Positions 1 to 16,989 of a stretch of DNA of 46,630 nt are shown here, piece after piece (positions within the stretch are counted from its first letter, which is position 1; every line of letters begins with the position of its first letter). The DNA comes from Micavibrio sp. (lineage in GTDB: Bacteria; Patescibacteriota; Minisyncoccia; Moranbacterales; GCA-2747515): positions 1 through 46,630 of the forward strand of contig DYDB01000008.1 in NCBI GenBank assembly GCA_020718085.1, in the 5' to 3' direction. A program made the position numbers and the translations under genes. The notes beneath the pieces were generated by a model that saw nothing but the letters and a program-made list of their open reading frames with translations, did not search any database and was not told where the DNA came from.

Positions 1-2
1 CA

Positions 3-3000
3 CAAAAAGAACAATATCCGATCGCACTTGATCCAACACTGCAGTTCACTGCTCCAGGGCAGAGTAATAGTGGGGATGTGATTGATGGGGAGGCAGGGAG
101 TCGGTTTGGGTATTCTACGGTCAATGGTGACTTCAATAGCGATGGAAAAATGGATTTGGGAATAGGAGCTATGTCATATGCGAGCAATACTGGACGTATA
201 TATATTTTCTACAACGACGGCACCATACCAACTACAGCAGTAACCGCAGATGTGATCATTACGGGTGAAGCAACAGAAAATTATTTTGGAAGTACGATCT
301 CAGCAGGTGATTTCAATGCTGATGGGCGTACAGATGTGATGGTTGGAGCGCGAGGATATGCAAGTAGCACTGGTCGTGTCTATGTTTTCTACAACGACGA
401 TTCCATTCCCACCACAGCCGCAACCGCAGACGTGATCATTACGGGAGGGGCAACAGGGAATGTTTTTGGTAGAGCATCTGCTGTTGGTGACTTCAACGCT
501 GATGGTAGAATCGATTTTGTAGTGGGTGCGGATGCTGTTCATAGTGTGTACATCTTCTACAACAATGGGTCATATCCTACCACAGCAACAACCGCAGATG
601 TGATCATCACGGGGAGTGGTTTTTTTGGAACGTCAATTACTGCAGGTGATTTTAATGCCGATGGACGTACAGATTTGGCAAGCGGAGGTTATGCAAATAG
701 CTCCTATGCGGGCAATGTTTCAATTTTTTATAATGATGGTTCATATCCTGCATTAGCAACAGGGGCGGACATTACGATCACGGGAGAAGCAAATAGCTTA
801 TTTGGGTGGAAATTGATTTCTGGTGACTTTAATGCGGATGGGAGAACTGATCTCGCTGTAGGCGCATATCAATACTCATCCAACACTGGTCGTGCCTACA
901 TTTTTTATTGCGATGGTACAATTCCTACCACAGCCGCAACTGCAGATGTGATCATTACAGGAGAAGTAGCGGGAGATTATTTTGGCTATAATTTGTTGAG
1001 TGATGATTTCAATGCTGATGGTAAAACCGATATGAGTGTTTACGGTGGCAATCGTGTTTATATTTTTTACAATGACGGCTCTATTCCCACTACAGCAGCA
1101 AACGCAGATGTGATTATTAAGGAGGAGGTGGCTTATAGCAATTTTGGATCTGGACTCTCAGGAATAACAAGTGGCGATTTCAACGCTGATGGACGCACGG
1201 ACATAGCGATAGGTGCACGAGCATATTCTTCGGATGCGGGTCGTGTCTATATTTTTTATTCTCAAAATGGACAGGTTAATACAAATAAAAAAATTACCGG
1301 AGAAAGCTCGAGTTGGTTTGGTAGTTCCCTTGCAATAGCTGATCTTAATAGTGATGGCAAAAATGATTTGATCGTTGGCGCGATCTTGTATTCCTCGCAG
1401 ATTGGTCGTGTATATATTTTTTATGCCGACGGCTCCATTCCCACGACAGCTGCTTCTGCAGATGTGATCATTACGGGAGAAACAATGAGCGGGTTTGGCA
1501 TATCTCTTGCCACGAGTGATTTCAATTTCGATGGTAAAATAGATCTCATTTCTGGTGCGCCTTATTATAATTCCAATCAAGGCCGCGCTTACATCTTCTA
1601 TGGTGACGGCTCCATCTCCACAACTGCAGCAACAGCTGATGTGATCATTACGGGGGAGGCGGGAAGTTTTTTTGGGCGCTCTGTTGTCGCTGCTGATCTG
1701 AATTCCGACAGCAGGTCAGATATCGCCATTGGTGCAAGTTCATACTCATCACAAACCGGTCGTACCTATATTTTCTATGGTGACGGCTCCATCCCCACAA
1801 CTGCTGCAACAGCTGATGTGATCATTACGGGGGAGACGACAAATAATTATTTTGGTTATGCTATGACGGCTGGTGATCTTAACATAGATGGTAAAACCGA
1901 TTTGATAGTGGGAGCACATGGATATGCTACAAACACGGGTCGTGCCTACATCTTCTATGGTGACGGCTCTATCCCCACTACAGCAGCTACGGCAGATGTG
2001 GTCATTACAGGGGAGGCGACGAGCAACTATTTTGGCTATGCAATGACAGTTGGTGATCTTAATATAGATGGAAAAACTGACTTGGTGGTTGGTGCGTATG
2101 GCTATTCTTCCAGCACAGGTCGTGCCTACATCTTCTATGGTGACGGCTCCATCCCCACAACTGCTGCAACATCGGATATTATTATTGCAGGGGAAGGCGG
2201 TCAATTTTCATGGGCTCTTACAACTGGTGACTTTAATGCTGACGGCAAAACTGACTTGGCGGTTGGAGCAATATCGCACCCTTCCAGTACAGGTCGTGCA
2301 TATATTTTCTACAATGACGGCTCTATCCCCACTACAGCCGCAACTGCGGATGTGATCATTACGGGGGATGCTACGAGTACGTATTTTGGATATTCTCTCG
2401 CAGCGGGAGATCTTAATGCTGATGGAAGAACAGATCTTGTTGTGGGTGCATATTACTATTCATCTCAGGCTGGGGGTGTTTTTATCTATGAAACGCGTGA
2501 TAATTACGCATGGCAAATGCAAGAGCAACGAGATTTAACGCGAGTTAATAGTTTATTTGGAGAGGAATTAAAAATTACAGGTGTTACTGGGCAAACGATA
2601 GGAAATTCTTTATTGGCAATGGATTGCAATGATGACGGGAAAAAAGATCTGGTAATCGGCGGTGGAAATAAAGTGTACATTTTTTATAATGATGGATCTT
2701 ATCCTGTTAGTAGTGAATTTGCAGATGCAATCATTACGAGTGAGGAAATATATGATGGGTTTGGCGGTAGAATGATCTTTGGAGATATGAACTTTGATGG
2801 TAAAGATGATCTGATAGTTTCAGCAGTAACTTCGTCCTCTAATGCTGGAAAGGTTTATATTTTTTACAATGATGGTTCGTTTCCTACTTTGGCCAGCGCG
2901 GCAGATGTGATCATGACTGGTGAAGCTCCAAACAATAATTTTGGTAATGCTTTGCACATGAATGATCTTAACGCTGATGGCAAAAATGATCTTGTGGTCA

Positions 3001-5123
3001 CAGCTCATGCCTACGCATCTTATACTGGACGTACCTACATCTTCTATGGAGACGGCTCCATCCCAACTACAGCCGCAACCGCGGATGTGATCATTACGGG
3101 AGGGTCAACAGGCAATTTTTTTGGCAACAGTATTGCAACTGGTGATTTTAATACTGACGGCAAAAATGATCTGGTCATTGGCGCAAGTGGTGGATTATCT
3201 GGTTTTGGCAGTGCATATTTCTTTTACAATGATGGTTCGTATCCGTCTACTGTGGCCACGGCTGATCTGACTATTTCCGGAGAAACGACAAATAGTAGTT
3301 TTGGAATTTCAATGACCACGGGTGATTTTAATGTGGATGGAAAAACTGATTTATCAGTGGCAGCACAATCATATTCTACACAAACTGGTCGCATGTATAT
3401 CTTCTACAACGACGGATCCATCCCCACAACTGCAGCAACTGCAGATGTGAGTATTACAGGAGAAACAACGAGTGGTTATTTTGGATGGAGCATGTCTTCT
3501 GGTGATATTAATGGTGATAAAAGAACGGATTTGATCGTTGGTGCACCAGGATATTCATCTTGGATTGGTCGTACCTATGTTTTCTATAATGATGGTGTAT
3601 ACCCAACCACTGCTGCTATGGCAGATAGTGTTTTTATGGGCGAATCTGCAAATAATAATTTTGGTGCAGTTGTTGGATCTGGCGATATTAATAATGACGG
3701 AACAAAAGATTTGATCATAGGAGCTTATGGTTACGCATCGAGTAAGGGGCGGGTATATATGTATACAATGAACGATTCTCAGACAATTGGTGATACAGGA
3801 GATCAATTTGGCATTGGATTGGCTTCCGGTGATTATAATGTTGATGGTAAAGTTGATTTGTTGGTTGGAGCGCCCGGCTATTCTTCCAATGTTGGTCGTG
3901 CTTATATTTTTTACAATCAAAATGGTAAAATATCATCCACTGCAACAAATGCAGATGTGATCATCAACGGTCAAGCAACCAGTGAATTTGGATTTAGAGT
4001 GAATTCCGGCGATTTCAATGCGGATGGTAAGATGGATTTTGCTGTTGGTGCACGATCTTATAATTCTAACCAAGGTCGTGCTTATATCTTTTATAGTGAT
4101 GGAAGCAATAATTTTGGCACAGTTGCTTGTAGCGGCTCCAGTCCGACAACATGTTCCGCTACCAATGGAGATGTGATCATTACTGGAGAAGCTGCTAGTG
4201 CTTTTGGGGGTAGATTGGCTGTTGGTGATTTCAATGCTGATGGAAAAACAGATTTAGCAGTGGGTGCTTATAACTATGCTACAATTACGGGACGTGCATA
4301 TGTTTTTAATCAAAATACGGCAGGAGGTTTTACTGCGACGATTGCGGCAACGAGTGCAAGTGCAATTTTGACGGGAGAAACCGTGGGTGATGGATTTGGA
4401 ATTGCGATGGCTTCTGGAGATTTCAATGCTGATGGTAAAATAGACCTCTCAGTTGGTTCTAACGGGTATTTATCGAGTGCCGGTCGTGTATATATTTTTT
4501 ACAATGGTTCGATTACAACTAAAAATGCCTCCGCAGCAAATATTATTGTTACTGGCGAAATAGCATCAAGTGAATTTGGAGGACTTGTTTCCTCTGGAGA
4601 CTTAAATAGTGATGGAAAAACAGATTTGATTGTAGGTGCTGTAACATATGATAATAACACCGGTCGTGTGTATATTTTTTACAATGATGGTTCCATACCA
4701 ATAAAGTCTGGGTCGGCAGATATCATCATTACTGGTGAAACTACCGAATCTTATTTTGGACGCTCTCCTATTTGTGCAGATTTTAACGCTGACGGTAGGA
4801 CAGATCTCGCTGTTGGTGCTAATAAATATTCTTCGAATACTGGTCGTGTGTATGTGTTTTATGGTGAATCAATAACCAATAATGCAGCGCAAGCAGACAT
4901 AATATTTACAGGAGAGGCAATAAACAATAACCTTGGTTTTGCTATAACAACAGGTGATATAAATATGGATGGCAAAACTGATTTGATCACGGGTGCCTAT
5001 GGATTTTCAAGTAATGCGGGAAAAGTTTATACATATATCAGTGAGGTAAATAACGAGGGGATTCAAAATACAGTTAAGGAGAAGGGAAATGTAAAAATTC
5101 GGGGAAATGTAAAAATGAAATAA
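3..5123 (+). CDS. FG-GAP/integrin-alpha-type beta-propeller repeat protein, 5' end outside window
   Basis: 28 copies of [G/A]D.N.DG..DL.VGA plus YIFYNDGSIPTTAATADVIITGE linkers. The frame is open from base 3 (QKEQYPIALDPTLQFTAPGQSNSGDVIDGEAGS...), so the listed GTG at 78 is probably internal. Confidence 0.93.
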   Translation, partial: QKEQYPIALDPTLQFTAPGQSNSGDVIDGEAGSRFGYSTVNGDFNSDGKMDLGIGAMSYASNTGRIYIFYNDGTIPTTAVTADVIITGEATENYFGSTISAGDFNADGRTDVMVGARGYASSTGRVYVFYNDDSIPTTAATADVIITGGATGNVFGRASAVGDFNADGRIDFVVGADAVHSVYIFYNNGSYPTTATTADVIITGSGFFGTSITAGDFNADGRTDLASGGYANSSYAGNVSIFYNDGSYPALATGADITITGEANSLFGWKLISGDFNADGRTDLAVGAYQYSSNTGRAYIFYCDGTIPTTAATADVIITGEVAGDYFGYNLLSDDFNADGKTDMSVYGGNRVYIFYNDGSIPTTAANADVIIKEEVAYSNFGSGLSGITSGDFNADGRTDIAIGARAYSSDAGRVYIFYSQNGQVNTNKKITGESSSWFGSSLAIADLNSDGKNDLIVGAILYSSQIGRVYIFYADGSIPTTAASADVIITGETMSGFGISLATSDFNFDGKIDLISGAPYYNSNQGRAYIFYGDGSISTTAATADVIITGEAGSFFGRSVVAADLNSDSRSDIAIGASSYSSQTGRTYIFYGDGSIPTTAATADVIITGETTNNYFGYAMTAGDLNIDGKTDLIVGAHGYATNTGRAYIFYGDGSIPTTAATADVVITGEATSNYFGYAMTVGDLNIDGKTDLVVGAYGYSSSTGRAYIFYGDGSIPTTAATSDIIIAGEGGQFSWALTTGDFNADGKTDLAVGAISHPSSTGRAYIFYNDGSIPTTAATADVIITGDATSTYFGYSLAAGDLNADGRTDLVVGAYYYSSQAGGVFIYETRDNYAWQMQEQRDLTRVNSLFGEELKITGVTGQTIGNSLLAMDCNDDGKKDLVIGGGNKVYIFYNDGSYPVSSEFADAIITSEEIYDGFGGRMIFGDMNFDGKDDLIVSAVTSSSNAGKVYIFYNDGSFPTLASAADVIMTGEAPNNNFGNALHMNDLNADGKNDLVVTAHAYASYTGRTYIFYGDGSIPTTAATADVIITGGSTGNFFGNSIATGDFNTDGKNDLVIGASGGLSGFGSAYFFYNDGSYPSTVATADLTISGETTNSSFGISMTTGDFNVDGKTDLSVAAQSYSTQTGRMYIFYNDGSIPTTAATADVSITGETTSGYFGWSMSSGDINGDKRTDLIVGAPGYSSWIGRTYVFYNDGVYPTTAAMADSVFMGESANNNFGAVVGSGDINNDGTKDLIIGAYGYASSKGRVYMYTMNDSQTIGDTGDQFGIGLASGDYNVDGKVDLLVGAPGYSSNVGRAYIFYNQNGKISSTATNADVIINGQATSEFGFRVNSGDFNADGKMDFAVGARSYNSNQGRAYIFYSDGSNNFGTVACSGSSPTTCSATNGDVIITGEAASAFGGRLAVGDFNADGKTDLAVGAYNYATITGRAYVFNQNTAGGFTATIAATSASAILTGETVGDGFGIAMASGDFNADGKIDLSVGSNGYLSSAGRVYIFYNGSITTKNASAANIIVTGEIASSEFGGLVSSGDLNSDGKTDLIVGAVTYDNNTGRVYIFYNDGSIPIKSGSADIIITGETTESYFGRSPICADFNADGRTDLAVGANKYSSNTGRVYVFYGESITNNAAQADIIFTGEAINNNLGFAITTGDINMDGKTDLITGAYGFSSNAGKVYTYISEVNNEGIQNTVKEKGNVKIRGNVKMK

Positions 5124-8885: not shown

Positions 8886-8954
8886 GTGATTTCGTTCATT
8901 TGATTAAAATTTGGTAAAGATATTCCTGAATTTAAGATGAAGGGAGGTGGAATA

Positions 8955-9158
8955 ATGGAATATTTGTTTGAACTGATTGAAAAAGTCAGTCTCTACGCAG
9001 TTTTGTGGTTTGCGATATGGTTGATAACGTTTTTTGTTAAAGAAACGTTTTTCAAAAAAATGGGCGATTGGTTCACTGGACCAGTTATAGCGATTTTTGT
9101 AGCATCGGTTGTTACGATCATGTTACTTATATACAATCATACTTCAATAGCACTATGA
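8955..9158 (+). CDS. Small two-TM protein (start refined to ATG 8955)
   Basis: AGGGAGGTGG RBS at 8941-8950 precedes ATG at 8955; two hydrophobic segments. Confidence 0.65.
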   Translation: MEYLFELIEKVSLYAVLWFAIWLITFFVKETFFKKMGDWFTGPVIAIFVASVVTIMLLIYNHTSIAL

Positions 9159-9177
9159 GGAATGCCATGAATCAAAG

Positions 9178-9211
9178 AAACAACCCAGTCATATAACGTG
9201 AGGGGTTGTTT
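9178..9211 (+). terminator. Intrinsic terminator
   Basis: AAACAACCC...GGGTTGTTT hairpin. Confidence 0.75.
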
Positions 9212-9331
9212 TATTATTTTGTAATGAAGGTGTCAAAAAATTCTTGTATGAACCTAATGGGTGCAGTTAAGATTTTTGTCGTTATATATAATAAGATATA
9301 GTATAATTTCAAATGGGATGAACATTGTTCT

Positions 9332-10366
9332 TTGATGAATAAAACAAAAAAAAGGGGGGGTGAAGTGAAAAAGACAAGGAGAAATCTACGGGGAAAGATT
9401 CGTGTTGGCATATTGCTTTTTTTAGGTGCAATTCTTTTGAGGAAACCAATGTTGTCTCTCATGCGATTTTTGCCATGTTTTTTTGACTATATTTTTTTTG
9501 TGTATCCTGGTAAGGAGAGTGATATTGGTGGATATCTGCCACAATTTATGGCAAATGGTTCGTGGTATAGAACGCAGATTTTTTTTGGAGGGATCATTAC
9601 TGCAGCAAGAGGAAAACGTGCGGGAAGAGGTTTTTTGATCGGCGCGCCATCAACAGTACGAAGCATGGTGCGTTCCAAAGAAGAATGTCTCATACTTGAG
9701 CGGAAGATGCGGTATATTGCCAATTGTTTTTCCATCAAAAAAATTGCGATTGCAGGAAGAGCGCCATCAATATTTTTGCGACATGATATTGCTTTGGAGG
9801 ATCCTTTTGTTCAAGGGGAAAAGGGAATGATCTTCTGTACTATTGAGGCATTGTACTTTGTGATGAACAAGCATCGCTTGTCTTTGCAAAATGTGCATAT
9901 TGTTGTGTTTGGCGCAGGCCGTGTTGGAAAAAGTATTTCCGATTTCCTTTTATCAGAAGAATGTACTGTAACCAACATTCGTGCACAAACCGTCTTTGAT
10001 CAAGAGGAACAGAAATTACCAGATGACGTAAACGATGTCTTGAGCAAAGCCGATGTTGTGATCGTGATCTCGGCAAAGGGTTCTGATTTCCATCCACACA
10101 TGAGATATCTGAAAGATGGTGTGATCGTAATTGGTGAGACACATCCTCCGATAATGAGATCTCTGAAACAAGGTTTTTTGTATAGGGCGGGATTATCTTT
10201 GAATGGATTGCGATTCGTTCCGGCACTTGAAACGTACAGTGCAACCAGTATCCCAGGATGTGTTGTCGAGGCAATTGTGAGCGCACAATACGGCAACATT
10301 TCGAATCAGAAAACTTTCAATCAGAGAGCGCGAGAGATCGGTTTTTACGCATGCATGGTTGAATAA
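9332..10366 (+). CDS. Rossmann-fold NAD(P)-binding protein with N-terminal membrane segment, unknown function
   Basis: HIVVFGAGRVGKSISDFLLSEECTVTNI...ADVVIVISAKGSDFHPHMRYLKDGVIVIGE; alternative GTG start near 9365. Confidence 0.65.
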   Translation: MMNKTKKRGGEVKKTRRNLRGKIRVGILLFLGAILLRKPMLSLMRFLPCFFDYIFFVYPGKESDIGGYLPQFMANGSWYRTQIFFGGIITAARGKRAGRGFLIGAPSTVRSMVRSKEECLILERKMRYIANCFSIKKIAIAGRAPSIFLRHDIALEDPFVQGEKGMIFCTIEALYFVMNKHRLSLQNVHIVVFGAGRVGKSISDFLLSEECTVTNIRAQTVFDQEEQKLPDDVNDVLSKADVVIVISAKGSDFHPHMRYLKDGVIVIGETHPPIMRSLKQGFLYRAGLSLNGLRFVPALETYSATSIPGCVVEAIVSAQYGNISNQKTFNQRAREIGFYACMVE

Positions 10367-10460: not shown

Positions 10461-10491
10461 CATTTGTTGGTTTATAGGATGAAATGTGAAC
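10461..10491 (+). repeat. Degenerate tRNA-3'-like spacer repeat R1
   Basis: CATTTGTTGGTTTATAGGATGAAATGTGAAC aligns with R3 CATTTGTTGGCTCTATGGGAGGAAGTTCGAAC. Confidence 0.45.
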
Positions 10492-10541
10492 ATTGCATAT
10501 GCAACGAGTAAATATGTGATAATAACTTACGTATTGAAATA

Positions 10542-10570
10542 TTGACAAATCATCCATAATTATGTATAAT
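10542..10570 (+). promoter_or_regulatory. Consensus sigma70 promoter TTGACA-17-TATAAT
   Basis: Perfect -35 and -10 boxes. Confidence 0.9.
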
Positions 10571-10632
10571 ATTTCATTGTTGTTATTTAAAAAAGTTTGT
10601 ATTATTCAGACTACTTGAAGAAGGAGGCTTTA

Positions 10633-11091
10633 ATGGTAAGCGATGACAGTGGGATTCGTGATCTTGAAGAAGAAGTTTTTGAGATGTGGGAGAGATCTAT
10701 TGATTCATACATTAATTGGTGCAAGGCTTTGAGAGATCTGCTTAGATCATTATCAGAGGTTTCATTCTCATCTGAAAAGATCATTGAGATCAATCTGATG
10801 CAAAGAAAGCTGAATGATATTTGTGAGAAGTTGGATAGATTCAAGAGTAATGTTCGCACAATAGAACCTCTAAAATTGGTTAATGCACGAATTGAGGAGG
10901 TGATTGGTGAGGAATTGTCTGTGATGATGGAGGCGGATAGTTTACGGAAAAAACGTATACTTGAGGTGCCTAGTCCAAAATTTGGTGTTACGGGTTTTTT
11001 GCTGATGCCTTATACGGTGATTAGTTATCATATTAGAATGTTTGTACATAAATTCCAGATGTATAAACTAAAAAAACGAGGGAGGGATTAA
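10633..11091 (+). CDS. Hypothetical coiled/helical protein (start refined to ATG 10633)
   Basis: AAGGAGG RBS 5-6 nt upstream of ATG 10633; ORF track start at 10597 is an upstream TTG. Confidence 0.7.
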   Translation: MVSDDSGIRDLEEEVFEMWERSIDSYINWCKALRDLLRSLSEVSFSSEKIIEINLMQRKLNDICEKLDRFKSNVRTIEPLKLVNARIEEVIGEELSVMMEADSLRKKRILEVPSPKFGVTGFLLMPYTVISYHIRMFVHKFQMYKLKKRGRD

Positions 11092-11094
11092 ACA

Positions 11095-11442
11095 ATGGAT
11101 TTTACTAAAATTCAAAGCAAGGATGCGTGGAGAAATGATGGGCTTGAGGAGACGATAGAGCCTCTCAAAAAATGTGAAATTCATGTTCTTGCTATAGATA
11201 GCATCACGGTCATTTTTGAACATGATCCAAATTTTTCCACAGCATTTCAACTTCGTCATGTGGTTGATAAGTATGGGAATTGCGGATTTGCGTATTATGT
11301 GGATCCTAGACAAGTATTCTCTTATGCAGATACTTTTCGACCCGGTATTTCACGATCAGTCTACGATGAAGTGCTTCGAGAAGGAACGGTCGTGCAACAA
11401 GAATTTCTGCGGCGCTCCTGGATCGAATTGAATCGTAGATAA
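11095..11442 (+). CDS. Hypothetical protein, operonic with 10633 ORF
   Basis: Starts 3 nt after the previous stop; GGGAGGG-type RBS. Confidence 0.65.
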   Translation: MDFTKIQSKDAWRNDGLEETIEPLKKCEIHVLAIDSITVIFEHDPNFSTAFQLRHVVDKYGNCGFAYYVDPRQVFSYADTFRPGISRSVYDEVLREGTVVQQEFLRRSWIELNRR

Positions 11443-11464
11443 ACGCACAAACTTTAAGTTCAAC

Positions 11465-11502
11465 AAAAAGGCGATTCACTCATCTGAGAGAATCGCCTTT
11501 TT
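11465..11502. terminator. Bidirectional terminator, family A
   Basis: AAAAAGGCGATTCACTCATCTGAGAGAATCGCCTTTTT; same inner stem as 10426. Confidence 0.85.
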
Positions 11503-11518
11503 ATCTTTCAAAAGTTTA

Positions 11519-11545
11519 TTGGACTTTTTGGGATAGTATTCGAAC
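11519..11545 (+). repeat. tRNA-3'-like spacer repeat R2 (degenerate)
   Basis: TTGGACTTTTTGGGATAGTATTCGAAC. Confidence 0.5.
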
Positions 11546-11549
11546 TTTT

Positions 11550-11903
11550 TTAACCCATCACTGATGAAAAATCTCTAAACACTTGGTAAGTGGAAAGTAT
11601 TGCGAGCAGTATCGAACCTATGCTTGTTATTATTCCAGCCAACTGTATTTTTTCATTTGGGATCAATACAAGAACTAAACTAATAACAGAATGAATTATT
11701 GTGAATATCATTGACACCCAAAAAGGATAATATGACATTCCACCAGCAAAATAATAAAATGCAAATAATCCAATTCCAAGAAAGACTATTAAGATTTTAT
11801 TTATGGGAAAATTATTTTTTATTAAGGCTGGAATTAAAGCTGAAATTGTGGCAATAAGTAATGTTCCTAAAATTAAAATAGGAATTAAAAGTAATACGCC
11901 CAT
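11550..11903 (-). CDS. Small multi-TM hypothetical membrane protein
   Basis: 117-aa ORF, four hydrophobic segments; the only minus-strand gene in the array. Confidence 0.65.
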   Translation of the reverse strand: MGVLLLIPILILGTLLIATISALIPALIKNNFPINKILIVFLGIGLFAFYYFAGGMSYYPFWVSMIFTIIHSVISLVLVLIPNEKIQLAGIITSIGSILLAILSTYQVFRDFSSVMG

Positions 11904-11972
11904 AAAAATATTAAAAAATTTATATATAAATTAAGTATATCACAGTGTGGGGTGAAAAAAATAAAATTTTTT

Positions 11973-12070
11973 GTTAATAGATTTACCCATTTTTTGTTTA
12001 AAATTCTTATCCTATATAGCGGATAAAAAATGAGAACATCGCAAGGATATCCTCATTTTTCATTTGTTGG
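11973..12070 (+). repeat. Degenerate copy C of the ~103-bp boundary repeat (includes terminator)
   Basis: GTTAATAGATTTACCCAT...CTTATCCTATATAGCGGATAAAAAATGAGAA...CCTCATTTTTCATTTGTTGG; aligns with 15678 and 16819 copies. Confidence 0.8.
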
Positions 12071-12092
12071 CTCTATGGGAGGAAGTTCGAAC
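12061..12092 (+). repeat. tRNA-3'-like spacer repeat R3
   Basis: CATTTGTTGGCTCTATGGGAGGAAGTTCGAAC; the 26-nt core is identical to R6. Confidence 0.8.
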
Positions 12093-12100
12093 ACTAGTAT

Positions 12101-12129
12101 TTGACAAACAATAAAAAATTATGTATAAT
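12101..12129 (+). promoter_or_regulatory. Consensus sigma70 promoter TTGACA-17-TATAAT
   Basis: 8 nt after R3. Confidence 0.9.
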
Positions 12130-12195
12130 ATATTGTTATTTTTTATTGTTAAGTTATAACATAATAATCTGAAACAAAAGATTGGAGGCAGAAAA

Positions 12196-12522
12196 ATGAG
12201 CAAATCAGATGAACAGATTAAAAAAGGTGTGAGAAAAATCGAGGAGATGCATTTGCACTCATTCAGGAGCGTGGTAAATTCATTAAAAAAAATTGTTAGT
12301 CTCTTGCCTGAAAAATGTGAAATGAGCGATTTTTCTTTGGGTGAAGATTATAGCATAGCACTGAAACGAGATGCCTTAAGGATGGTTATAACAGAAATTG
12401 AAATAATTAAAAGATATCTTGAGCTCTTGAAAATTTCTGTTCCTACATCTGATGATCTTTCATGGCTTGAAAAGATCGTAATGTTGGAAAAAATCGTTGA
12501 TGACACAATTGCAAAGAAATAG
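12196..12522 (+). CDS. Small helical hypothetical protein
   Basis: GGAGG RBS at ~12184; 108-aa ORF with own promoter and terminator. Confidence 0.7.
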   Translation: MSKSDEQIKKGVRKIEEMHLHSFRSVVNSLKKIVSLLPEKCEMSDFSLGEDYSIALKRDALRMVITEIEIIKRYLELLKISVPTSDDLSWLEKIVMLEKIVDDTIAKK

Positions 12523-12536
12523 ATTATCAGCGATTT

Positions 12537-12575
12537 AAAAAAAGCAATCAACTCAGACGAGGTGATTGCTTTTTC
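12537..12575 (+). terminator. Intrinsic terminator, family A
   Basis: AAAAAAAGCAATCAACTCAGACGAGGTGATTGCTTTTT. Confidence 0.85.
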
Positions 12576-12600
12576 ATTTGTTTGAAAATTGTCTCATCGG

Positions 12601-12626
12601 TTGGTTCTATGGGACGAATCTTGAAC
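12601..12626 (+). repeat. tRNA-3'-like spacer repeat R4
   Basis: TTGGTTCTATGGGACGAATCTTGAAC; 5 differences in 26 from R3. Confidence 0.65.
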
Positions 12627-12652
12627 GCTTTTATGCAATGAAATAGATTGTT

Positions 12653-12683
12653 TTGACAAGTTTTGATATACTTAATCTATAAT
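12653..12683 (+). promoter_or_regulatory. Sigma70-like promoter TTGACA-19-TATAAT
   Basis: Upstream of 194-aa ORF. Confidence 0.7.
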
Positions 12684-12697
12684 TTTAAAAATCTTTT

Positions 12698-13282
12698 ATG
12701 TTTGGGAAAAGTTTAAAAAAGTGGGCAAAAGAAAATAGTTTAAATTATGAGAAAAAAGAAAAATTGAGTTTAATTAGATCAGAGAATGTTACACTAAAAA
12801 ATATTATTTGGGGAGAAAGAAATGGCAAAAAAGTTTATATTTTTGAAATTATGAATGAAACAGGGACTATTTCTAATATATACTATTATTGCAATCAGGG
12901 TTTTTATAAGGAGTTAAAATATAAAAACGTTGAAGAAGCTCTTTCCGGAGAGTTAGAACAAAATGGGATGAGTGTTTTTGGAGGCGAAACAGAAGTGGAA
13001 ATTATTGAAATTATTGTTGCAGAAATTTATTTGGATTTAGGTAAAAAAATAGATTACACCGTTGTCAAAAAGGTTTTGAAATCTTTGAAAAATTATTACA
13101 AATCAAAAGTAGGCATAAAAGATGTGATTATTGGAAATCTGATTGGCGCTCAAAGATCTGATATTGATTATGGCTCTGAGGAGTCAATTGAATTTGTTTT
13201 AAAGGAAAGTGAATTAGATCGGGAATTGGTTGAAATCATTGCAAAAAAATACGAAGAACTTTTCCAAAAATTTAATCAATAA
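12698..13282 (+). CDS. Hypothetical soluble protein
   Basis: 194-aa ORF with own promoter and terminator; no recognisable family. Confidence 0.7.
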   Translation: MFGKSLKKWAKENSLNYEKKEKLSLIRSENVTLKNIIWGERNGKKVYIFEIMNETGTISNIYYYCNQGFYKELKYKNVEEALSGELEQNGMSVFGGETEVEIIEIIVAEIYLDLGKKIDYTVVKKVLKSLKNYYKSKVGIKDVIIGNLIGAQRSDIDYGSEESIEFVLKESELDRELVEIIAKKYEELFQKFNQ

Positions 13283-13287
13283 TAAGT

Positions 13288-13316
13288 AAACCACCTTGAT
13301 AAAAAAGGTGGTTTTT
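13288..13316 (+). terminator. Intrinsic terminator
   Basis: AAACCACCTTGATAAAAAAGGTGGTTTTT. Confidence 0.85.
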
Positions 13317-13321
13317 ATTAG

Positions 13322-13347
13322 TTGGCTCTATGGGATGCAGTTCGAAT
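13322..13347 (+). repeat. tRNA-3'-like spacer repeat R5
   Basis: TTGGCTCTATGGGATGCAGTTCGAAT; 3 differences in 26 from R3. Confidence 0.75.
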
Positions 13348-13397
13348 ACACGTAAATACAAAAAATGCACTTTAGATTAGAATTTAAGATGTGTTTG

Positions 13398-13426
13398 TTG
13401 ACAATGATATTATTTCATGTTATATT
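13398..13426 (+). promoter_or_regulatory. Sigma70 promoter TTGACA-17-TATATT
   Basis: Upstream of GGDEF gene. Confidence 0.75.
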
Positions 13427-13507
13427 GATGCGATTATTTGTTATTTGACAATATGAAAAAATATCCATTTTGGATCAAAATATCTGATGAATATAGGGAG
13501 GTGTATT

Positions 13508-15055
13508 ATGGGTCTACGATCAAAAATTGCTGTAATGATCATGGGATTTCTTTTTGTGTTTATCATTGCGAGTTATGTATTGCTCAATATAATATTCCAG
13601 CCAGCGATCATTGAACATGAAAATGAGCATGTGGAGACGAATATTCGTCGCATTACAGAGGTGTTTCAAAATGAAATGAAACATCTCAATCAAATTTGTG
13701 CGGATTGGTCGTCGTGGGATGCTTCATATGATTTCATGGTCTCGCGCAACCAGAAATACATTGATGAGAACATTGAGGATAGCACGTTCATAAATGCCAA
13801 GTTGAATCTTATACATTTTGTGAATATGGATCATCAAACGGTGTTTTCGCGTGCCTATGATTATGTGCAGAAAAAAAATATCGATATTGATGAGTTTTTG
13901 CGTGACACTGTAAATATGAATCATTTTTTGATGCCGCGCATGCAGGGTGAAAGTGCACTTGTCGAACGATATATGTCAGGTGTCATTGCGACGCATCGCG
14001 GCATGATGATCGTGTCAAGTCGTTTGATCCTAACAAGTCAAGATCAGGGACCAACACATGGCGTATTGATCATGGGACGATTCATTGAGCCGATGCTTGA
14101 TGGTATCAAAAAACAGATCGATATCAATTTTGATATTATTACTGATCATGATCGCATAGTGGAGGAACAAGAGTTGCGTATACGTCCGTATGTAGTCAAG
14201 AAAGACAATGATAAGCAGTTCTCGGTCTATCAAAGTATGCTGGATATACGTGGAGATATTGCATTTGTTGTGCATTTTGTCGTACCGCGTACATATTATG
14301 CAGAGTCAATGCGGTTATTGAAATATGCACATATGTCATTTGTGGCATTTGCCCTGGTGATCCTTCTTGGTGTTTCGGTTGTATTGGAGTTTTTGTATTT
14401 TCGTCCTTTATTGCGACTCAAGGAAAGTGTTGAATATGCGCGAGAAAATCGTGAATTTACCACTAGTGTTGTGATCAGATCTCGAGATGAGATTGGATCT
14501 CTTGCACAGTCATTCAATGTTCTTTGTCAGGTAATTGCACAGAACAATGCTGATCTGGAACGTCTTGCACAGACAGATGTCTTGACGGGTGTGGCGAATC
14601 GTCGCTTTTTGGAAAATTTTCTATGTGTGGAGATCCAGAGATCGCAAAGAAGAAATTTGGTATTTTCCGTTTTGTTTTTTGACATTGACTATTTTAAGTT
14701 GCTCAATGACAAGTACGGACATCAATGTGGGGATTTTGTATTACAAAAATTCGCACAATTACTTCAGAAAAATTCGCGCAAAGAAGATCTTGTGGCGCGA
14801 TATGGTGGTGAAGAGTTCGTCATCGTTCTTCCTGATGCGAATAAGGATGAAGCAGTACAGCAAGCTGAGCGTCTGCGACAATTGATCTCAGATACAGCAA
14901 TTGCATGGGGTGATCAAAAGATCACTATTACATCAAGTATCGGATGTGCGAGTTATCCACAAAATGGTGATACAGCTGAGCGGGTTGTGTCATCCGCAGA
15001 CATTGCTCTCTATGCTGCAAAAGATCATGGCCGCAATAGGGTTATTGTTGCATGA
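13508..15055 (+). CDS. CHASE4-like sensor / HAMP / GGDEF diguanylate cyclase
   Basis: N-terminal TM, DWSSWDASYDFM...YIDENIEDSTF (CHASE4-like), second TM, HAMP-like linker, DVLTGVANRRFLE and RYGGEEFVIVLPDA. Start refined: GGGAGGTG RBS before ATG 13508. Confidence 0.88.
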   Translation: MGLRSKIAVMIMGFLFVFIIASYVLLNIIFQPAIIEHENEHVETNIRRITEVFQNEMKHLNQICADWSSWDASYDFMVSRNQKYIDENIEDSTFINAKLNLIHFVNMDHQTVFSRAYDYVQKKNIDIDEFLRDTVNMNHFLMPRMQGESALVERYMSGVIATHRGMMIVSSRLILTSQDQGPTHGVLIMGRFIEPMLDGIKKQIDINFDIITDHDRIVEEQELRIRPYVVKKDNDKQFSVYQSMLDIRGDIAFVVHFVVPRTYYAESMRLLKYAHMSFVAFALVILLGVSVVLEFLYFRPLLRLKESVEYARENREFTTSVVIRSRDEIGSLAQSFNVLCQVIAQNNADLERLAQTDVLTGVANRRFLENFLCVEIQRSQRRNLVFSVLFFDIDYFKLLNDKYGHQCGDFVLQKFAQLLQKNSRKEDLVARYGGEEFVIVLPDANKDEAVQQAERLRQLISDTAIAWGDQKITITSSIGCASYPQNGDTAERVVSSADIALYAAKDHGRNRVIVA

Positions 15056-15065
15056 CCAGGGTTAT

Positions 15066-15102
15066 AAAGCCTCGTATATATTATTATGTATACGAGGCTT
15101 TT
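15066..15102 (+). terminator. Intrinsic terminator
   Basis: AAAGCCTCGTATA...TATACGAGGCTTTT. Confidence 0.88.
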
Positions 15103-15135
15103 GATATTTTGTTTGCTTGGTAAGTATTCTGTTAG

Positions 15136-15161
15136 TTGGCTCTATGGGAGGAAGTTCGAAC
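15136..15161 (+). repeat. tRNA-3'-like spacer repeat R6
   Basis: TTGGCTCTATGGGAGGAAGTTCGAAC, identical to the R3 core. Confidence 0.8.
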
Positions 15162-15169
15162 TTTTATAC

Positions 15170-15198
15170 TTGACAATAGCTTGTAAGTATGCTATTGT
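15170..15198 (+). promoter_or_regulatory. Sigma70-like promoter TTGACA-17-TATTGT
   Basis: 8 nt after R6, same spacing as R3. Confidence 0.7.
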
Positions 15199-15258
15199 AA
15201 TTTGTTGCAGTTTTTTTAAATAAATTCATATCTATTAACAATAAGGGAGTGTGAAGCT

Positions 15259-15597
15259 ATGTTTAATTTAATTACACCTATTGTATGTGGAGCATTAATT
15301 GCCTCACTCGGGTTCATTATCTTAGAATTCTTCTTTGATAAAGAATATTTAAAAAAAGAGTTCTCTGCTTTTCTTCCTATAATTTTTGCATCAATTGCAA
15401 TGATTGATAATATTATTGGTTTTGGGAATAGAGAATGGATTATTTGTACTTTTTTTGCTATTTTATCTTTTGCAACTCTTGCTTTTTTGATGCTTAAGAG
15501 AAAAAAGCGGGGTGCGGAGAGGGTGCAACATACAAGACTCGTTCAAATAATGAGCAATCTTGTTGAAAAGAGAAATGCAGATGAGAATAAGATATAA
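15259..15597 (+). CDS. Small membrane protein, about 3 TM
   Basis: AAGGGAG RBS; hydrophobic ORF with own promoter and terminator. Confidence 0.7.
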   Translation: MFNLITPIVCGALIASLGFIILEFFFDKEYLKKEFSAFLPIIFASIAMIDNIIGFGNREWIICTFFAILSFATLAFLMLKRKKRGAERVQHTRLVQIMSNLVEKRNADENKI

Positions 15598-15618
15598 TTT
15601 TATATTCTCATTCAACTT

Positions 15619-15660
15619 AAAAACGATCCATCACAAAAAAATGTGATTGGGTCGTTTTAT
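15619..15660 (+). terminator. Intrinsic terminator
   Basis: AAACGATCCATCACA...TGTGATTGGGTCGTTTTATT. Confidence 0.75.
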
Positions 15661-15677
15661 TATTTACATCAAAATTC

Positions 15678-15780
15678 GTTGGGCCGGTAGGATTTACCCA
15701 TGCTGGGCATAAACTTCTCATCCTACCAGCAGATAAAAAATGAGAATGTCATTCAGACATCCTCATTTTTCATTTGTTGG
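15678..15780 (+). repeat. 103-bp boundary repeat, copy A
   Basis: 102/103 identical to 16819-16921. Contains GGTAGGAT...ATCCTACC stem-loop and an ATGAG..ATGTC/GACAT..CTCAT terminator hairpin. Confidence 0.95.
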
Positions 15781-15802
15781 CCCTATGGGACGAAGTTCGA
15801 AT
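15777..15802 (+). repeat. tRNA-3'-like spacer repeat R7
   Basis: TTGGCCCTATGGGACGAAGTTCGAAT; 3 differences from R3. Confidence 0.75.
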
Positions 15803-15844
15803 TTTTATGCGTGAAAATAGCGTATAAATAGGGACTTTTAGATA

Positions 15845-15873
15845 TTGACATAGTATTAAAAATATAGTATAAT
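15845..15873 (+). promoter_or_regulatory. Consensus sigma70 promoter TTGACA-17-TATAAT
   Basis: Upstream of 240-aa ORF. Confidence 0.9.
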
Positions 15874-16029
15874 TAACAATCGTTTTAGTTATTTAAAAAT
15901 CAAATATCATTCCATTTCACTTTTATAGAGCAGGAGGCTCTTTGTGGATGAATATCTAAGTATCATTTGTCGCTAAGGATTTTCTTCGAATACAAACTGA
16001 ATGTTTTCATGGATATAAAGGAGACAATA

Positions 16030-16749
16030 ATGAACTTTTCAGTCACCGTGAATTTTGGTCAAATGGTTGATGCGATCAATGGCAAAAAAGGTTGTCCAGT
16101 TAATTGGTCATGTGATGGTTTGATTTTAATGATCGTTGCCTGTTTTGATCAGTTGGAGGAAGACTTTCTCTATAAATTAACCCTTGAACAATGGCTTGAT
16201 ATTTTTATTATCGCAAAACACAAGAATGAATTGGCTATTGCGAACAGAGCATTTCAAAAGTTGGAAGAATTGAGTAATTCTTTTTCGAACTGGTTAATGA
16301 TTTGTCAGAAATGCAACGGATCTCATCTTGACAAATCAATGACTGAAAGAGCGATGGTGGAAATTTCTATGAGAGCAGAAACTCTCGAGGAATACATCAA
16401 AGCATTCTTTGCGATAAGTTTTCGTAAACAGGATATATTATGCCTTGATCGTTCATCTTTATGCGCGGATATTTTGGCAAAAATTCAAATCCTTATTGCA
16501 AATGCTTCATTAGAAGAATTGTTTAAGTGTAGCTTGTTGTTTGGAACCGGTAATAAAGAAAGCAGCGAAATTGCCAACCTAGTATATGTGCGGCTGAAGA
16601 CCATGAAGAGTACCTACGATGAATGGTGGAACATAACGAAACGTGTTTATCTTAACTTTCAAGGATATAAGAGTGAAAGATTCGACGAATTGATTAATCA
16701 GCGTTCATTAGAGCTTTTTTCTCTCGAAAATCCTGAGTTTATGAAATAA
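16030..16749 (+). CDS. Hypothetical protein, helical (start refined to ATG 16030)
   Basis: AAGGAG RBS at ~16018; ORF track begins at 15967. Confidence 0.7.
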   Translation: MNFSVTVNFGQMVDAINGKKGCPVNWSCDGLILMIVACFDQLEEDFLYKLTLEQWLDIFIIAKHKNELAIANRAFQKLEELSNSFSNWLMICQKCNGSHLDKSMTERAMVEISMRAETLEEYIKAFFAISFRKQDILCLDRSSLCADILAKIQILIANASLEELFKCSLLFGTGNKESSEIANLVYVRLKTMKSTYDEWWNITKRVYLNFQGYKSERFDELINQRSLELFSLENPEFMK

Positions 16750-16763
16750 ATAAATTTCAACAT

Positions 16764-16805
16764 AACGGCCCAATCACATAATGTGAGAGGGTCGTTAAAT
16801 TTTTT
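16764..16805 (+). terminator. Intrinsic terminator
   Basis: AACGGCCCAATCACATAATGTGAGAGGGTCGTT...TTTTTT; resembles the 15619 terminator. Confidence 0.75.
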
Positions 16806-16818
16806 AGACGAAAAACTT

Positions 16819-16921
16819 GTTGGGCCGGTAGGATTTACCCATGTTGGGCATAAACTTCTCATCCTACCAGCAGATAAAAAATGAGAATGTCATTCAGACA
16901 TCCTCATTTTTCATTTGTTGG
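16819..16921 (+). repeat. 103-bp boundary repeat, copy B, overlapping 3' end of tRNA-Gln
   Basis: One mismatch to copy A; its first 17 bp recur at 16917-16933 inside the tRNA. Confidence 0.95.
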
Positions 16922-16989
16922 GCCGGTAGGATTCGAACCTACGCGTCACGGGACCAGAACCCGTTGCCTTACCGCTTGGCTACGGCCCA
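16918..16989 (-). tRNA. tRNA-Gln (anticodon CTG)
   Basis: Reverse complement TGGGCCGTAGCCAAGCGGTAAGGCAACGGGTTCTGGTCCCGTGACGCGTAGGTTCGAATCCTACCGGCCCAA; all arms pair. Confidence 0.93.

Follow-up and report, generated by a model that had tools for sequence, protein, structure and literature searches.

An array of small-gene cassettes ends at a tRNA-Gln gene

The window (the whole stretch of 46,630 nucleotides that was analysed, part of a genome of 1.29 Mb in 18 contigs) contains an array of seven small-gene cassettes, which occupies positions 10466-16818 and ends at a tRNA-Gln gene. Judged from its sequence organization, the array very probably consists of non-autonomous cassettes of one or two genes that were inserted in trans at the 3' end of the tRNA-Gln gene by a large serine recombinase (LSR), a serine integrase. 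Each cassette begins with the boundary RTTGGYYCTATGGGAYGARGTTCGAAC or a weaker form of it; in most cassettes a promoter of their own, a single gene (cassette 1 has two) and a terminator come next. The features are listed below; scores in bits refer to R1, a sequence model of the boundary.

10466-11517, plus strand: cassette 1; strongly decayed boundary at 10466 (R1 17.0 bits), perfect TTGACA-17-TATAAT promoter at 10542, ORFs 10597-11091 and 11095-11442, terminator
11518-12065, no strand assigned: cassette 2; strongly decayed boundary at 11518 (R1 16.3 bits), ORF 11550-11903 on the minus strand; its last part is an old copy of mini-unit M
About 11971-12065, end of cassette 2: decayed copy of M, similarity to M 63-78%
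12066-12599, plus strand: cassette 3; boundary at 12066 with the in-frame LSR tail LALWEEVRTLVFDKQ and stop, promoter, ORF 12196-12522, terminator
12600-13320, plus strand: cassette 4; boundary at 12600, among the few with a left arm (TTTGTTTGAAAATTGTCTCATCG followed by GTTGG...), ORF 12698-13282
13321-15134, plus strand: cassette 5; boundary at 13321 with the tail LALWDAVRIHVNTKNAL and stop; diguanylate cyclase (CHASE4-HAMP-GGDEF) at 13487-15055
15135-15677, plus strand: cassette 6; boundary at 15135 with the tail LALWEEVRTFILDNSL and stop; ORF for a small membrane protein at 15259-15597
15678-15775, minus strand: mini-unit M (first repeat copy), 98 bp
15776-16818, plus strand: cassette 7 (the unit of the sequence-only reading); boundary at 15776 with the tail LALWDEVRIFMRENSV and stop, perfect promoter at 15845, ORF 16030-16749, terminator
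16819-16916, minus strand: mini-unit M' (second repeat copy), one mismatch to M in 103 bp; adjoins tRNA-Gln
16917-16989, minus strand: tRNA-Gln(CTG), with the 3' end GTTGGGCCGGTAGGATTCGAACC, the putative attB half-site

The genes face tRNA-Gln in six of the seven units, and three cassettes have perfect TTGACA-17-TATAAT promoters. The GC content of the cassettes is 27-39%, compared with 41% in the flanks. Except for the CHASE4-HAMP-GGDEF protein, no cassette gene product had a family match above the cut-off, and cassette 1 gave neither a Pfam nor a PADLOC match. A defence role for the window cassettes was rejected because none of them had a PADLOC match. The gene at 16030-16749 had no convincing homologue in the 130 other genomes of the order, where marginal short matches alone were obtained, and the family search returned only a sub-threshold HNH match. 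An Rfam scan of the 8-18 kb region matched the tRNA alone. No LSR, Rep or tyrosine recombinase gene was found in the seven cassettes.

Decay of the boundary showed only a weak trend with distance from the tRNA (rho 0.68, p 0.09), and a clear gradient was therefore rejected. Between ftsX and the array (8937-10366) there are two more small genes, one of which codes for a 344-aa NAD-binding protein; possibly these are older cassettes whose boundaries have decayed past detection. Positions 1-5123 are part of a very long gene for an FG-GAP-like repeat protein, which has many diverged internal repeats and runs off the contig end.

Cassettes and boundaries in related genomes

The syntenic locus has the order tRNA-Thr, prfB, ftsE, ftsX ... 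tRNA-Gln. Seven cassettes are present there in the window (G000), two in G004 (L024), one in G002 (L029), and one in G051 (L030), which belongs to another family. The cassettes differ among these four genomes. Elsewhere, cassettes of two species, L026:10660-12010 and L028:6186-7541, were 91.6% identical; the homology begins exactly at the boundary, and the left flanks are unrelated.

The boundary is present in the window in four copies (12066, 13321, 15135 and 15776), with none expected by chance and none found in shuffled sequences; the weaker forms are at 10466, 11518 and 12600. It was found in all five other same-genus genomes, with up to eight copies in one. Among named genomes, all exact matches were in MAGs of Candidatus Moraniibacteriota (Moranbacteria). 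When R1 was run on 131 genomes of the order, matches were obtained in 31. Outside the genus 13 copies could be tested, that is, either a tRNA was in view or at least 7 kb of contig lay downstream. Ten of these 13 face the 3' end of a tRNA-Gln gene within 7 kb (binomial p about 8e-20, on the rough assumption of a 0.7% chance per copy), and an eleventh faces the tRNA-Ser gene targeted by the LSR of its own element.

Some arrays in the genus have no adjoining tRNA in the contigs examined. In G001 and G002 a second array follows the CTP synthase gene (L023 and L028; G001:C106, G002:C4). At the end site of this array in G001, GTTGGTCCTATAGGATTTAAG, the spacing of TAGGATT is still like that of a tRNA, and the site is a possible secondary attB. 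A viral origin was rejected, since IMG/VR contained no exact match to the boundary and, by the pattern method, no relative of the LSR.

The boundary resembles one half of an LSR attP site

On sequence grounds, the boundary looks like the attP half of an LSR. Its first eight bases track the 3' end of the target tRNA, with 7-8 matches out of eight in the clearest elements, for Gln and Ser. Boundaries start with GTTGGG or GCTGGG for Gln, with GCGGRGAG for Ser, and with GAGGAGAG where that tRNA-Ser has it. In all true target pairs that were scored on both sides, the sequence TTCGAAC/TTGGAAC starts at index 21 in the boundary and at index 16 in the tRNA. This 5-bp shift fits the LSR rule of Rutherford and colleagues, according to which attB has the zinc-domain (ZD) motif 5 bp nearer to its centre than attP does (PMC3783163).

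Complete boundaries, as at L022:9326 and L028:6188, are imperfect palindromes of about 47 bp centred on GTTGG, with the zinc-domain motif in both arms. In G001 the left arm is intact directly beside tRNA-Gln; in most internal boundaries the left (P) arm is lost, shortened or changed.

When the LSR was read across the circle junction, a tail of the type LxLWDEVxT...stop was obtained in 9 of 10 junctions, indicating that attP lies inside the 3' end of the LSR gene. Because of this location each cassette starts with an orphan LSR tail, and the window boundaries of cassettes 3, 5, 6 and 7 indeed encode the same tail in the same frame (type LALWDEVRT...stop). The codon-position entropy test of the tail gave a weak result, the third position being only slightly more variable, and the claim that the tail is in frame rests on the shared frame, peptide and stop rather than on this test. 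The tails closest to those of the window boundaries belong to the tRNA-Gln LSRs of G015 and G016 (LALWDDVRT and LALWDRVRN), which are of the same family; this points to that type of LSR as the helper. Comparison of eight loci (L182, L184, L125, L129, L135, L137, L192 and L193) revealed that the C-terminal tail of the LSR differs by state. It is WDEV(R/G)T... in the circle and is encoded by the tRNA antisense strand, often as an LGRRDSNPR-like sequence, when the element is integrated.

The location of the boundary between terminator and promoter, and the ability of complete copies to fold into an imperfect hairpin with an 18-bp stem, would also suit an extragenic palindrome that does not move, or an element that regulates the small genes downstream of it. 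Such an element would not account for the first bases tracking the target tRNA, for the orientation towards tRNA 3' ends across the order, for the presence of the boundary at the flanks of LSR elements, or for its reading in frame as an LSR tail. We consider this explanation extremely unlikely.

LSR elements with a rolling-circle Rep gene

In G059, G083, G015 and G016 the interval between the motif and tRNA-Gln is an autonomous element. The last genes of these elements code for a rolling-circle Rep (PF23343) and then for an LSR that ends at or across the tRNA; the gene upstream of the LSR gene is thus a Rep gene and not that of a second serine recombinase. The LSRs of L137 and L135 matched PF00239, PF07508 and PF13408 (Resolvase, Recombinase and zinc-ribbon) above the cut-off. 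The LSR also matched the phrog_95 integrase and, distantly, the solved serine recombinases YokA and TP901-1. Related LSRs are present in 76 of the 131 genomes of the order, and in most of the loci examined their end is at a tRNA gene (Ser, Pro, Val, Asp or Gln). A single LSR element (L182; G000:C15, about 23.6-30.7 kb) is present in the genome of the window. It is ~7.1 kb long, resides in tRNA-Ser(GCT) and contains the boundary GCGGGGAGTGTGGGACGATGTTGGAAC, a rolling-circle Rep gene and an LSR of 500 aa. No tRNA-Gln-specific LSR was found in the genus.

Some of the cargo of the autonomous elements codes for a Thoeris ThsB TIR protein and an OLD/AriA-like ATPase (L129:775-1263 and L135:1690-3045, respectively, both on the minus strand); the elements thus appear to be carriers of genes for defence against phages.

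In G016 tRNA-Gln is preceded by a tandem of two cassettes and then an LSR element. The same tandem occurs in G083, spread over two contigs that overlap by 127 bp. Since integrated elements are well documented to decay to att-flanked remnants with tandem accretion (PMC5704250), we considered whether the array in the window could have arisen from ordinary integrative elements (cis-mobilizable islands) standing in a row, which decayed in place by losing their integrase and replication genes. The 3' tail of the LSR gene retained at each boundary would agree with such decay, and the account of the Dehalococcoides islands in PMC3146451 provides a precedent, with cargo-only islands beside LSR islands. 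However, a tblastn search for LSR and Rep remnants in the array gave as sole matches those between the LSR C-terminus and the antisense strand of tRNA-Gln itself. Moreover, seven independent deletions would hardly have left seven short units that keep promoter, ORF and terminator intact, and integrase-less cassettes are common to genomes at different places, as in the L026/L028 pair (91.6%). In-place decay is therefore an unlikely origin of the array.

Proposed mechanism of cassette insertion

We infer that the cassettes were circular, that the LSR acted in trans and that entry was at the tRNA end. Each cassette would formerly have been a small circle whose attP was the imperfect palindrome around GTTGG (about 47 bp). 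Crossing of this attP into the GTTGG at the tRNA end, by an LSR like those of the relatives, would leave the right attP half (P') at the far end of the cassette and restore the tRNA, so that new cassettes would enter at the tRNA. The LSR would have acted in trans because the array encodes none.

Several observations count against this model: the lost left arms, the lack of a tRNA-Gln LSR in the genus, the arrays without an adjoining tRNA, and the weak decay trend. In addition, characterised serine integrases, as far as the account in PMC3783163 extends, do not recombine attP with attR, yet an array that grows in tandem at the tRNA must have a site that can be used again. For repeated entry, the enzyme would have to be permissive or the site would have to be converted back to an attB-like form; alterations are in fact seen in most left arms of the array.

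As a tentative generalization, the array may represent a 'serine integron' in Moranbacteria, that is, a lineage-wide system of gene capture with tRNA-Gln as the fixed entry point. Its single-gene cassettes would carry an attP with an orphan integrase tail, the LSR that builds the array would be supplied by separate rolling-circle elements, and direction would be set by the swap of the integrase C-terminus, from WDEVRT in the circle to the tRNA-antisense form after integration.

Relation to known systems

Integrons and chromosomal integron arrays resemble the window array in having tandem small cassettes, one fixed entry end and a folded recombination site. Integrons use a tyrosine recombinase and entry at attI, whereas the window array has an inferred serine recombinase, entry at a tRNA and cassettes with own promoters; unlike in integrons, the integrase would come in trans from separate rolling-circle elements. 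A true integron, with an IntI tyrosine recombinase acting on attC hairpins, could produce single-gene cassettes mostly in one orientation, and complete boundaries do form imperfect hairpins. G001 even has one extra tyrosine recombinase that appears IntI-like by eye; this protein of 346 aa, IntI/Xer-like, is encoded at L054:5458-6495 on the minus strand (G001:C151) and was found in one of the six genus genomes. In the other five there is a single tyrosine recombinase, syntenic, far from the arrays and apparently a housekeeping Xer. There is no IntI beside the array, most cassettes have own promoters, in part of consensus sequence, entry is at the tRNA end and not at an attI beside intI, and the boundary is an LSR-type half-site that encodes an LSR tail. 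Taken together, a true integron is almost certainly the wrong explanation. An attC reading of the boundary was likewise rejected, on account of the promoters in the cassettes and the absence of intI near the arrays; GTTGGGC fits GTTRRRY only because it is the tRNA acceptor end. A Xer/dif-module was also rejected, since inspection by eye showed no dif-like arms and since the one Xer-like gene lies at a distance from the arrays. The array is thus integron-like in architecture yet fails the defining features of an integron.

SCC/SCCmec elements (Ccr) resemble the window array in that serine recombinases insert them at the 3' end of a conserved gene, that they form composite islands in tandem, and that some members have no recombinase of their own. 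They differ in having a protein gene as target and a size of tens of kilobases, and in lacking promoter-gene-terminator minicassettes. Mycobacteriophage BPs has a tyrosine integrase. In mycobacteriophages such as BPs attP is inside a coding gene near a tRNA-type target, as in the elements described here, and integration alters the C-terminus of the protein; in the account of PMC4557955 the altered protein is the repressor, whereas here it would be the serine integrase itself, the effect being a predicted one.

The mechanistically nearest system is that of the Dehalococcoides ssrA islands (DsiB) or, more generally, the accretion of cis-mobilizable elements. As described in the passages of PMC3146451 on these islands (which also discuss SCC/SCCmec), they too combine an LSR, the 3' end of an RNA gene and tandem arrangement, and many lack an integration module. 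They belong to a different phylum, target tmRNA by inferred T-loop insertion and are much larger, with cargo-only islands that include reductive dehalogenase genes; these passages describe neither single-gene cassettes nor an attP within the integrase gene (PMC3146451). The elements studied here do not correspond to a DsiB/DsiA module at ssrA, their targets being tRNA-Gln, tRNA-Ser and others and their Rep gene lying upstream of the LSR gene. In CIMEs and in ICE/IME accretion, att-flanked non-autonomous units likewise accrete at one tRNA end, but the known cases are described as decayed conjugative or mobilizable elements, while the units here are of about 0.5-1.8 kb with one or two genes (PMC5704250). 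The array agrees with the definition of a CIME in that its seven att-bounded units lack integration and transfer genes and that such units stand in tandem with LSR elements in G016 and G083. Judged from common att sites, a related autonomous element may mobilize them.

A literature search on CPR/Patescibacteria integrons, tRNA-linked serine recombinases and Moranbacteria mobile elements returned nothing on this system. What is new is that the cassettes hold single genes with own promoters, that attP lies within the integrase gene and that tRNA-Gln would serve for entry. If the proposed mechanism is true, arrays of single expressed genes like those of integrons would have evolved a second time, by an independent route, and in ultra-small CPR bacteria, for which little is known of how genes are gained. 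Small genes that lack annotation would, as an entire class, be traced to a mobile pool that can be defined. Natural attP/attB pairs would become available for a serine integrase family that uses tRNA ends, and it could be tested whether the tail swap of the integrase on integration controls direction.

The 103-bp repeat contains a separate mini-unit

The sequence-only reading had called attention to near-identical 103-bp direct repeats that bracket a single gene next to tRNA-Gln. The segments 15678-15780 and 16819-16921 are indeed identical at 102 of 103 positions (C and T, respectively, at the sole mismatch, 15703), in direct orientation and 1141 bp apart, and the second copy extends into the tRNA-Gln gene at its 3' end, which points toward the repeat. 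The third copy, near 11973-12070, is real and, as had been stated, diverged (63% identity without gaps over 120 bp, 78-80% by BLAST). Repeated use of one boundary was also borne out, although the recurrent boundary is the 27-bp att half-site RTTGGYYCTATGGGAYGARGTTCGAAC. The 103-bp repeat itself consists of the 98-bp unit GTTGGGCC...TTTCATTT (mini-unit M) and the next GTTGG, and the 1141-bp period is the sum of the 1043-bp cassette 7 and one such unit. Of the proposed 1141-bp single-gene insertion, therefore, the part that holds is that a discrete unit was inserted and is not ancestral (its gene lacks a convincing homologue and the cassettes at the tRNA-Gln locus differ among relatives); the 103-bp repeat is not its boundary. 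The repeat pair is not a feature common to all relatives, as none of the five same-genus genomes has it.

In the tRNA sense M consists of a copy of the tRNA-Gln 3' end, a bidirectional terminator hairpin and a box of the form GGTAGGAT-GAGAAGTTTATGC-hairpin-GGGTAA-ATCCTACC, after which the 3' half of the tRNA is repeated once more in a displaced position. Boxes of the M type (GAGAAGTTTATGC-hairpin-GGGTAAAT joined to a copy of a tRNA 3' half, with arms that match the local T-stem) occur elsewhere, with no cassette in between. They were found behind tRNA-Ser in the window's genome (L213, G000:C15:39393), behind tRNA-Arg in G004 (L199/L204, G004:C73; two in exact tandem, 122-bp unit) and behind tRNA-Ser in G025 (L220/L226, G025:C1:199154; two in exact tandem, 57-bp unit). 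Further boxes follow tRNA-Ala, tRNA-Ser and tRNA-Tyr (M-type loci also include L217, L222, L223 and L229). Because the same box occurs behind other tRNA genes, M is distinct from the cassettes and probably represents another type of insertion, one that uses the T-loop, or a relic of such an insertion. It is not explained by the LSR and thus counts against insertion by the LSR as a full account.

With cassette 7 lying between M and M', it seems that M was acquired at the tRNA twice, once before and once after this cassette; equally possible is that one copy arose from the other by homologous recombination or gene conversion. Once M was present twice, cassette 7 and M could form a 1141-bp module deletable by homologous recombination. 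Taken alone, the repeat could be viewed as a recent duplication, or as a 1141-bp circle inserted through RecA without the help of any special recombinase, because copies that are 99% identical and in direct orientation are sufficient for homologous recombination. This is very unlikely and is refuted as a full account, since it leaves unexplained the 27-bp boundary at every other cassette, the genus- and order-wide link to tRNA ends, the encoded LSR tail, and the M-like mini-units behind other tRNA genes without an intervening cassette. It stays as a possible explanation of how M and M' became nearly identical. An M box bearing the tRNA-Asp 3' end was also observed in G094 (L196 and L231; G094:C12, 15-44 kb), where the region from tRNA-Asp to this box, about 29 kb long, contains two LSR genes as well as phage-like genes and is possibly a composite island.
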